A program made the position numbers and the translations under genes. A model generated the notes under the pieces. The model was not told the origin of the DNA. It saw only the letters and a list, made by a program, of their open reading frames with translations, and did not search any database. DNA of 42,069 bases. It comes from an uncultured Lachnospiraceae bacterium (GTDB lineage: Bacteria > Bacillota > Clostridia > Lachnospirales > Lachnospiraceae). Numbering within the stretch: the stretch's first letter is position 1; each line of letters begins with the position of its first letter. Shown here piece by piece: positions 23,143 to 26,577 of the stretch. The stretch is from assembly GCA_947599905.1 (NCBI GenBank), contig CANQFR010000005.1, positions 1 through 42,069 of the forward strand, in the 5' to 3' direction.

Positions 23143-26100
23143 TCAATCATATTTCCCATTACCCCTGCAGCACTTTTTGAATTTTTTTCCGCTTCCGCAG
23201 GGACACGGTTCATTGGCGCCGATCTTTCGACGTTCTCTTCGATACGGTTCATCAGGCCGGCAATCGGAAAGCCATTGCAGCATCTCCGCCTCCCCGTCGA
23301 TCTCCGGAATACCGCTTCCCATAAGCGGATTATAGCGGGCATCCTGACGCGCCCCCAAAAGGACCTTCTCTGTCATGTAATTCTCTCTCCGGCCAGCTTC
23401 TTCAGAATCCTCCAGTATCTCAAAAAACAGATTTCGCAAAACCGCAGAGTCATAATTTTTTTCTACATAAGAAAACAGTTCTTCCACTTCGCGCCGGGGC
23501 ACTTTCTCTTTCAAAATCCTCCTGTAAAGCGCATGCGTAGCCGTTAACAGTACCGAAGCGACTTCATCCAGCACAGGATTTTGTTTTAGTATCGATTTCG
23601 TCTCGGCGATCAGGTCTCTTACCCGTCCTTCATCATCAGCAATGAAATTCAGTTTAAAAGTTTTCAAAATCCCCCAGGAAAGATTCAGCGCTTCATCGGA
23701 GTCCTCATGACCAAACTCCATCGAACCAAGCGCTTCCTCCAGCACCTTCAGCCTGTCCTCCGCCTCCTCTTTCCGGATGGAACGGCTGAAAAAATCCATC
23801 TGCAGCCCCGCGGCCCTGCAGCCGATCGCTCTCGCCCGGATATTCCAGTCATCCGGATAAAGCAGTTCCGCCTTTTCGATCAGACCGGCGCCGCGTCCGA
23901 TACAATTCGTCTTATGACAGTTACAGGAAAAATAATCATAATTAAAGCAGGAATGCGCCAGAAGCCGCACGGCGTCCTGACAGGCATAATCGCATTCCGC
24001 ATCCATCTTCTTAAGAACCTGATATGCAGCCTCAAAATCTTCATCCAGAAGTTTCGCCATCATAACGGAATTTTTGTTCTGCATATTCAGCATCGACCCC
24101 AAACCGGAATGGGCCGTCCCGGCCAGCAGCACATCCATTTTCGTCTGCAGATATGACGCTTCCTCCAGAAAACCGGCCTTAGACAGTTCCGTAATATGCT
24201 CCCCGAGGAAAACCCGTTTCATGATTTCTCCCGCCTCGCCGGACGGAACCGCCAGCGCTTCCTCGACTGCGTCGACCATCGCAGACACATCATACAAAGA
24301 CCACCGGCCAAGCGCCTGCGCCACCAGATTCAGACCGGATATCTTAATTAACGACAATTTCTCATAATCGGCGTCCTCTTCCGCCGGAAGCGCAACAGCC
24401 TTCCAGAAGGCATGTTCATTCTCTACAATACCATATAAAACATTCGGGTCATCATCCTTCTTTATCATACGCGCACGGAGCAGCCGCAGTCTGTTCGCAA
24501 GGACCTTATCATCACGCGTCGTTTGATTATAAGCATTCAGCGCCTTCCTGTAAAATTCATTCCCCGGAAAGTCGGTAAGACATCTGACAATAAATATGGT
24601 AAAATCATTCGCCGCATTCTGCCAGATCTCACTCATGACCGCTTCCAGCCGCTCTTCTTCCATGTAGAAGAAAAACATATATTCCTTTATGATATCCGGG
24701 AATAAAGGAATCATCCGCGTCTGCCGTCCATCCGTATTCTGGCAGAGCGAACTGATCACCGAAGCCATTTTCTCTTGTCGCTGCTGCCCCGGATACGAAT
24801 GATTTTCTATATACCTTTGCACGATCTGCCAGTCCGGCTTATAATAATCCGGCAGCTGCTGCATCTTCAACTCACCGGATATATTGGCGCGCAGCAACAG
24901 GTGAATCAGCGCGTTACAGCACTGCTGATCTCCCTCCAGCGCGTTCAGCCATTTCTCCTGCTCCCGGTAAAGCAGCATCCGGAGAAGATCCTCAAAACCG
25001 TCATACCTTGGCAAAGAGCACCCGTTTTGTATCCACGCCTCAACAAAAATCTGCACAAACAAAGGGCGAAACCGCAGATACTCCAGCTTTGACCGATAGG
25101 CTTCCCTGAGCGCAATATCACGATCCGGATCCGGCAACAGCCCATTCAGGCGGCAGACAAATCCGATAAATGCCGCGACAGAACCGTCATCCATATCCTC
25201 AATATTCAGGAAATTTTCCGCATATCTGTATCTCTCCAGGGAATCATACCGGCTGAAGCGCTGCGACAGTCTGGCATACCAGGAGCCCGCACCCCTGTTA
25301 TTCTCACGTTCGATCAGCAGGATCCTGAGCGAATACGGCGTATCCGCGAAACAATATCTTAACCGCTCGATCAGTTCCGCAGCATAGGCTTCTCTCCCGC
25401 TGACATAATCGATCACCGCCAGTGTGTCGGTAAACGGCAGATAGGCTTCGGCATCTTTGATCGAAGCTTTATCATTGACAAAAAAGCCATACCACGCAGC
25501 CGGCAAATGCCTCATAAATTCATAAGCCAGCCGGCTTTTCCCGGAACCCGCCTGACCGGTTATCGCCCACCATGAAAAACCGGCGTCATCCGCCACAAAC
25601 CGGAGCAGGCTCCCGATTTCTTTCTCCCTGCCGCAGAACGGAACCCTTTCCTGAGAATAATGATAATCCGTAAGTTCCCCCGTCAAAACAGCTTCACCTG
25701 TATAGACAGTCCTTCCGACCAGAGGATTTCTCTCCGACCAGACTCTTAATCTCTCCTGCGCCACATCTTCCAGAAACAAGGGCAGATCCTCATACTCGCT
25801 TCCGAACACAACAGGCTTCATATGGGGCGGCAGATCTTCCGGCTCCTGCCCCGACCTGCAAAGGAAAAAATAGTCCTTATCCATGCGGAGCTTCTCTTTC
25901 GCAAATCGGATAAACCGTGAAATATTGGCATCTTCCGCCGTTTGTCCGCAGCCGACAAAGACCAATGTCCGCGTCCCCAGAATATGCTGAATAAACTGCG
26001 CCCCTTCATCGTTCAATACTTTGTCATATTGCTGTTGGTCCGCAATGATATTATCTCTGCCGGCCGCAGCATCGAACACGCCATGAAGATGCAGAACCGC

Positions 26101-26577
26101 GCCATTTTTCTTCCTGTCCAGCATGGGAAACGCCAGATGCGGCTCCTCATAAGTCAGCGTTGAAAGTCCGGCAGCCTCTTCCAGCAGGAGATCATAATTC
26201 GTAGTAGCAAATATATCCTGCGTAATAAGAAGTTTCCGCAGGGTTGCAGCCATTCGGTCATTGGTAACCGTCAGGGAATGAAAGCTTTCCGTCATCCAGT
26301 CCCAATAGCTTCCTTCTTTTTTCAGCGCAGAGATCACCCCGCCCGCAATCCGGATCAAATGGTCGGTCGAACCGTCACTCTCAAGCGCCTTTCGATAATT
26401 CTCCGCTAACGACCTATCCTTCATGCAGGCAATGCCATTCATGATCCATTGCCGCCAGGACACAGCCCGGTTGTCCGTAAGGGCCAGCGATGATCCGGCT
26501 CCAAACAGATAAACCAATTCATCCGATTGAATCGCCCTGTAAAACTCCGGGCAGGCTTTCAGGTCCCTCTTCATCAC
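23143..26577 (-). CDS. SIR2-like/STAND NTPase protein with C-terminal SEC-C motif (putative anti-phage defence)
   Basis: A 1144-residue multidomain protein. Residues 15-270 match a SIR2-like NAD-binding domain: YLFGAGSS (25-30), TTNYD with Asn127, LHLHG with His165, and [17 protein letters not shown]. Residues 313-600 are a STAND-type P-loop NTPase: FCGREKE, Walker A GQAGSGKS (341-348), Walker B LAVIDY (Asp390). Residues 600-1110 are helical and may form a sensor of tetratricopeptide-like repeats. They include a Cys/His cluster at about 875-890 ([16 protein letters not shown]). The end is a SEC-C zinc motif, [13 protein letters not shown] (1125-1137). SIR2-STAND proteins such as Avs5 deplete NAD on phage recognition; that role is inferred. 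It may be co-transcribed with the HExxH gene. Confidence 0.85.
   Translation of the reverse strand: [1144 protein letters not shown]

Follow-up and report, generated by a model that had tools for sequence, protein, structure and literature searches.

Why does a bacterial protein that is laid out like an Avs5-type SIR2-STAND immune receptor end in a SEC-C motif? The question is raised by a minus-strand gene on contig CANQFR010000005.1 from an uncultured Lachnospiraceae bacterium (GenBank assembly GCA_947599905.1), of which positions 1 to 42,069 were analysed; this whole stretch of DNA is referred to as the window. Avs5-type SIR2-STAND proteins are described as an effector, a switch and a sensor, and the family of the window protein adds to these a fourth, constant SEC-C module. 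No report of a SIR2-STAND protein with a SEC-C tail was found in the open-access literature (subscription papers were not covered). The architecture is real, conserved and unusual, and it is a variant of the SIR2-STAND immune receptors. From the analysis presented here, the gene probably encodes an immune receptor that acts as a one-gene system against phages (or mobile elements), an Avs5-like NADase in which the SEC-C tail would be a constant module that does not confer specificity.

The open reading frame extends over 1144 codons from a GTG (23143-26577), and its second codon is ATG. The protein used throughout is that of 1143 residues starting at this ATG (23143-26574), and its residue numbers are the GTG numbering minus 1. 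An earlier note, made from the sequence alone, had described the protein as a SIR2-like domain, a STAND-type Walker A/B NTPase, a long helical sensor-like region and a terminal CxCx8CC SEC-C motif. Both ends of this description were confirmed with Pfam, which placed SIR2_2 (PF13289) at 122-242 (GTG numbering, as for all Pfam positions given here) with 54.9 bits against a cut-off of 24.5, and SEC-C (PF02810) at 1122-1137, where the CxCx8CC motif is present, with 32.8 bits against 20.4. The SIR2 part contains the GAGxS and TTNxD motifs, the former being replaced by GTGIS in the near-identical relatives L043 and L044. Asn127, His165 and Lys347, which the note had singled out for mutation, correspond to N126, H164 and K346 counted from the ATG; the catalytic Asn and His of the SIR2 part, the Walker A Lys and also D389 are invariant in all seven rows of the family alignment. 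Defence by PaAvs5 is reported to require the SIR2 Asn and the Walker A Lys at the corresponding positions (PMC12931631).

The NTPase in the middle of the protein was borne out in its motifs but not by profiles. All seven aligned rows, that of the window included, have the Walker A motif GQxGxGKS and a Walker B-like [IV]DY, while AAA_16 at 313-395 reached 28.2 bits, under its cut-off of 32.6, nSTAND1 an E-value of 0.011, and nSTAND3 (PF20720) an E-value of 0.04 with 14.1 bits against a cut-off of 27.2. The NTPase is named STAND-like here because of its motifs, position and fold, the profiles being sub-threshold. Chance or assembly error is a very unlikely source of the architecture as a whole, because five full-length relatives from other assemblies align end to end with the window protein at 38-55% identity. 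Pfam found both SIR2_2 and SEC-C in all three full-length relatives that were scanned.

Two types of sensor were distinguished in the family: type I in the window protein, L039, L040 and L041, and type II in L042, L043, L044 and, judged by its remaining pieces, L046. Mean identities were calculated over five non-redundant full-length rows. Between the types they amount to 58% in the SIR2 part (residues 1-290), 40% in the NTPase, 36% in the NTPase extension, 17% in the sensor (691-1080) and 13% in the linker, but 83% in the tail (1117-1143); the corresponding values within types are 56, 52, 55, 44, 38 and 88%. When the protein was read in 1117 overlapping segments of 27 residues, the between-type identity of the tail was reached by seven, namely the tail itself and six that start at SIR2 residues 186-193. 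Homology between the sensors of types I and II can still be recognised (18% identity, hhalign probability 97%), and one SEC-C tail subtype is present in all eight loci with a readable C-terminal end (all but L041).

When the five sequences were compared in pairs, each of the ten pairs had 20-25 tail residues in common, 10-19 of which are encoded by different codons. These silent differences rule out a recent exchange of the tail between members, and the tail is therefore held by selection and not recently copied. A tail that is 83% identical between types with sensors of 17% identity is the opposite of a specificity determinant and is therefore unlikely to read phage, which weakens the suggestion in the note that the SEC-C motif reads a phage target. 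Taken together, the sequences argue that the SEC-C tail is the constant module and the sensor the fast-changing part, and that specificity is not set by the tail. Since the tail is kept by selection while the sensor changes, a constant cellular partner of the tail is probable. A recombination between effector and sensor is not claimed: the SIR2 part is equally alike between and within types, but its tree is unresolved (a clade by sensor type was not rejected, approximately unbiased (AU) test p 0.26). The NTPase tree (residues 300-690) separates the two types with a support of 100/100.

The tail subtype was compared with 27 background SEC-C tails, which come from loci fetched for likeness to the query, with one small-protein family contributing many of them, and which are not a random sample. 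Phe occupies the KFK position in six of six distinct family tails and in 3 of the 27 background tails, Ala replaces Arg in five of six against 1 of 27 (23 of the 27 have Arg), and a Gly after CC occurs in none of the six against 25 of 27. Family tails end in CC[RKI]GxGxYD, and all six distinct ones have the four Cys that are the putative zinc ligands. Outside the family the same subtype was seen in one protein only (242 residues; L080 8497-9222, the same gene as L023 895-1620). This protein has a HELRH motif and looks metallopeptidase-like by eye, SEC-C being its sole Pfam row. With the tail alone as query, at least 54 of 150 Lachnospiraceae genomes, that of the window included, gave matches at E<=1e-7; most of those listed were, judged by frame length, small SEC-C proteins or proteins the size of SecA. 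The window genome has five SEC-C matches, this gene included, and its SecA-sized protein (859-residue frame, L002) also has the Phe of the KFK position. A degenerate tail pattern gave no match in viral contigs.

The family is a rare accessory one. It comprises nine loci, the window and L039-L046, of which eight belong to Lachnospiraceae and one (L041) to a metagenome-assembled genome of Spirochaetales. A scan of genome contigs with a two-row alignment, which used two short peptide patterns and is not a census, returned nine loci: the eight true relatives L039-L046 and one Paenibacillus match over SEC-C alone. A whole-protein search of 200 Lachnospiraceae genomes gave matches in all 200, and among the matches listed nearly all were SEC-C tails of other proteins, together with one full-length relative (L007, the same gene as L042) and two distant NTPase matches. 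When a profile of residues 1-700 was used at E<=1e-25, six of 397 Lachnospiraceae genomes matched, four with family members (window included) and two with distant proteins; the class sample (2/391) and the phylum sample (3/398) gave, apart from the window, distant proteins only. No phage carriage was found in two viral-contig scans or in phage records, and plasmids gave three partial matches only, all within residues 10-275.

Full-length members share 36-61% identity, except L043 and L044 at 99%. At the nucleotide level L043 467-4039 and L044 309-3881 are 99.2% identical over 3573 bases, in assemblies of two species and with different left flanks. L044 is a short contig, and contamination is possible behind its near-identity to L043. 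The contig of L041 ends at residue 896, and its C-terminal end is unreadable. Two copies are decayed: L045 is a remnant, and L046 (10001-15335, Lachnoclostridium sp. An196) is a split copy in which the gene is interrupted by an open frame of 434 residues, presumably an IS110 transposase.

The AlphaFold2 model of the window protein, obtained with the 7-sequence alignment, has a mean predicted local distance difference test score (pLDDT) of 67.8 and a predicted template modelling score (pTM) of 0.46. A long helical array is seen at about residues 710-1075, mostly with pLDDT 70-92, which with the TPR matches agrees with the sensor-like region of the note. The linker (1079-1117) has pLDDT below 50, and the SEC-C part is of low to middling confidence. 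In structure alignments of the model the sensor part resembles TPR superhelices; the VIA-align rows cover mainly residues 675-1086, and the lack of SIR2 folds there carries no weight. Foldseek against the PDB ranked EfAvs5 (SIR2-STAND, 9jap) first with an E-value of 1.5e-6, followed by SAMD9 at ranks 2-3 and the AVAST5 filament (9nc9) at rank 4 (E 1.4e-3).

Location of the gene and of its predicted domains in the window.
Feature	Coordinates	Strand	Remarks
Whole gene	23143..26574	-	1143 aa when started at ATG; the GTG at 26577 is an alternative start
SIR2-like effector, residues ~1-288	25711..26574	-	Pfam SIR2_2; GAGSS 25-29, TTNYD 124-128, HG 164-165
P-loop/STAND-like NTPase and helical extension, residues ~300-690	24505..25677	-	Walker A K346, Walker B-like D389; sub-threshold AAA_16/nSTAND rows, motifs, model
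Variable TPR-like helical sensor, residues ~691-1080	23335..24504	-	
Low-confidence linker, residues ~1081-1116	23227..23334	-	low pLDDT; 13% identity between types
SEC-C tail, residues 1117-1143	23146..23226	-	C1124, C1126, C1135, C1136; ends RGNGKYD; Pfam SEC-C

How such a protein might work can be proposed from its homologues. The architecture, the conserved residues, the diverging sensor, the constrained tail and the accessory spread were obtained directly, and the steps of the mechanism are taken from homology. In the resting state the TPR-like array would keep the protein inactive. Upon binding of a foreign protein by the array, the ATP-loaded STAND-like domain would oligomerise and thereby gather the SIR2 domains, leading to hydrolysis of NAD+ and cell arrest. 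The SEC-C tail, on a perhaps flexible linker, would either dock the receptor to a constant host partner or serve as a regulatory latch. For Avs5, PMC12931631 reports that the repeat domain binds the trigger, that the switch depends on nucleotide and that NAD+ is hydrolysed, and PMC12700824 names activation through filament formation.

Docking to a constant host partner is ranked slightly ahead of the latch, and the best guess for that partner, made from the tail of SecA, is perhaps the ribosome. As reported in PMC6620043, the C-terminal tail of SecA is a flexible linker followed by a SEC-C domain, the SEC-C domain by itself co-sediments with ribosomes, and binding by the tail is disrupted when its metal-binding cysteines are modified. 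The window protein has the same layout, a low-confidence linker and a terminal SEC-C. A bolder and rather unlikely version is an NLR-like (nucleotide-binding leucine-rich repeat) NADase stationed at the ribosome, where the SEC-C motif would dock near the polypeptide exit, a proposal made for the tail of SecA, and the TPR array would inspect nascent phage proteins, so that the receptor fires before assembly. If true, a ribosomal partner would show where such a receptor awaits its trigger.

Several results weigh against the receptor proposed here. The NTPase part is below every Pfam STAND, NACHT and AAA cut-off, some stretches of the SIR2 part of the model are of low confidence, and TM-scores to Avs5 structures are low (0.14-0.17, on a model with a pTM of 0.46). 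The background tails closely resemble one another (mean 0.88 over 21 positions); the conservation of SEC-C is generally high, and the constancy of the family tail therefore tells that the tail is kept working and not what its partner is. Because Ala stands for Arg in five of the six distinct family tails, the partner may differ from that of SecA. Finally, in a PADLOC scan of 20 neighbour proteins over the nine loci, seven loci, that of the window included, had no strong defence-model match.

Of the alternatives, the one that survives best concerns the tail only. As an auto-inhibitory or assembly latch, the SEC-C motif would pack on the NTPase or SIR2 part of its own or a neighbouring subunit and be released on activation, with no part for the ribosome. 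We regard this as possible, if doubtful. Truncation of the SecA tail alters SecA activity, with changes in ATPase and substrate binding, and its authors conclude that the tail, a linker plus SEC-C, influences conformation (PMC6620043). Moreover, effector and tail are both conserved in the family and the intervening part is variable, as expected of parts that touch. On the other hand, the model places the tail without confidence behind its low-pLDDT linker, and all three distant SIR2-STAND relatives with a readable C-terminal end manage without SEC-C.

A second alternative would remove the protein from defence altogether and make it a SIR2-STAND protein regulating stress or metabolism in the host, for example a sensor of ribosome or envelope stress. 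The window locus is no defence island, and at seven of the nine loci the neighbours scanned gave no strong defence-model match; SEC-C is also common on proteins of housekeeping size, including SecA-sized ones. We nevertheless hold such a role to be improbable in view of the patchy and rare distribution (4/397), the 99% identical copy in assemblies of two species with different left flanks, the two decayed copies, and the neighbours at the remaining two loci, L046 and L044. The 9 kb or so upstream of the L046 gene contain a gene for a patatin effector (4e-94), an RdrB-like one (2e-40) and a weak match to RdrA (4e-8), and a single frame of 360 residues separates the RdrB-like gene from the family gene; L044 adjoins a fragment of the candidate PDC-S72 (7e-41). 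The defence island for which the note had proposed a neighbour survey is absent at the window locus, and strong defence-model matches occur at two of the nine family loci.

Hardly probable at all is that the tail is a bait, i.e. a copy of a host target (the SecA tail or another SEC-C protein) attacked by a phage protein, in parallel to the integrated decoys of plant NLR receptors: SEC-C is widespread in Lachnospiraceae and the SecA-sized L002, one of the three background tails with Phe in the KFK position, shares this residue with the family, but a decoy should resemble its model, and the L002 tail is in other respects unlike those of the family, with Pro for Ala, CH for CC and a different end; moreover, the Gly after CC is missing from every family tail, and a single tail subtype serves both sensor types.

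In the window, the gene of the proposed receptor lies at a core-gene boundary and adjoins a glycan and transport cluster. The core genes downstream, named from Pfam matches, are a small conserved gene, holA, gpr, spoIIP, lepA and a HemN-like gene. Seven of seven congeneric holA regions contain holA together with the small gene, and the SIR2 gene was not found by tblastn in any of these seven loci, of which 3 to 12 kb upstream were examined. Nucleotide similarity to the closest congener ends at 23139, three bases before the stop codon of the gene; it ends at 23120-23136 for four other congeners and within holA for two. The G+C content, which is 0.55-0.64 in the core genes, falls to about 0.50 at the window gene. 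The small gene beside holA (22692-23139), matched in all seven congeners, has a HEYGH motif and no Pfam row.

On the upstream side are a PDDEXK_2 gene (26920-27915), divergent from the window gene, and the glycan and transport cluster. The PDDEXK_2 gene was considered as a partner, but the link is not upheld: the upstream fragments in L039 and L040 are without a Pfam row, and tblastn with the two PDDEXK_2 genes of the window found nothing at the loci of the relatives. It has a repeated NSENQQL stretch close to its C-terminal end and is 72% identical over 326 residues to a second PDDEXK_2 gene at 4532-5506, the genome having four matches in total. Further upstream, a 56-base stretch at 27942-27997, far from the holA block, is 93% identical to the locus of the closest congener (L058 8325-8380). 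For two frames, 28013-30286 (757 residues) and 30439-32538 (699 residues), neither Pfam nor PADLOC returned a row at E<=0.01, and the G+C content drops to 0.38 from 30000 on.

Among known systems, Avs5 (AVAST type 5; EfAvs5 9jap, AVAST5 filament 9nc9, PaAvs5) has the domain order SIR2, P-loop/STAND and helical repeats in common with the window protein, and likewise the GAGxS and TTNxD motifs. The Walker A Lys is similarly placed, K346 in the window protein and K363 in PaAvs5 (PMC12931631). However, the solved Avs5 chains are listed with 764 and 833 residues against the 1143 of the window protein, and the SEC-C tail and the longer sensor belong to the latter and not to Avs5. The HG of the window protein is canonical, whereas Avs5 is reported with NG about as often as with HG (PMC12931631). 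The window protein was not matched at E<=1 by the PADLOC Avs5 profile PDLC02170, nor was protein P0002 at E<=0.1, a negative that is limited by the HMMER filters, which drop most rows above about 0.1; the same profile does match the distant relative L072 (3e-6). At E<=1e-40 the Avs5 profile matched none of 249 genomes of the phylum, but as the controls were missed as well, this result carries no weight on absence. Similarly, the family profile had no match at E<=10 to the solved AVAST5 chain (9nah/9nc9), which L072 reaches at E 0.052. The missing profile match speaks against membership in Avs5; the likeness to Avs5 suggested by the note is supported, with EfAvs5 as first Foldseek rank, though at low TM-scores. 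The family is built like Avs5 and probably works like it, yet is not filed as Avs5.

Distant SIR2-STAND proteins (L008/L069/L079, L072/L077 and L073/L078) have SIR2_2 and nSTAND5/AAA_16-like rows, mostly under cut-off, with TPR rows in L008, and it is only in the NTPase part that they align to the family profile. G007, a fourth distant match, is likewise confined to this part and is cut by the contig end. The distant protein at L077 6942-10295, which lacks SEC-C, lies after an open frame that resembles dnaJ by eye. As SEC-C is absent from all three distant proteins with a readable C-terminal end, the tail marks the family among the proteins compared. In SecA and YchJ, both of whose tails were matched in the PDB, SEC-C also stands at the extreme C-terminal end, as it does after the low-confidence linker of the window protein; unlike these tails, that of the family closes an immune-type receptor, usually has Ala for Arg, lacks a Gly after CC and ends in CC[RKI]GxGxYD. 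Human FAM118B, a SIR2_2 protein reported to be similar to bacterial antiphage sirtuins (PMC12700824), is the only solved protein whose sequence matches the SIR2 part, with E-values of 1.3e-10 (phmmer) and 3.9e-22 (profile). Its solved chains of 298 and 371 residues are too short for the NTPase, sensor and SEC-C parts. The family provides bacterial receptors whose SIR2 domain, among solved structures, has its sequence match in this human protein only.

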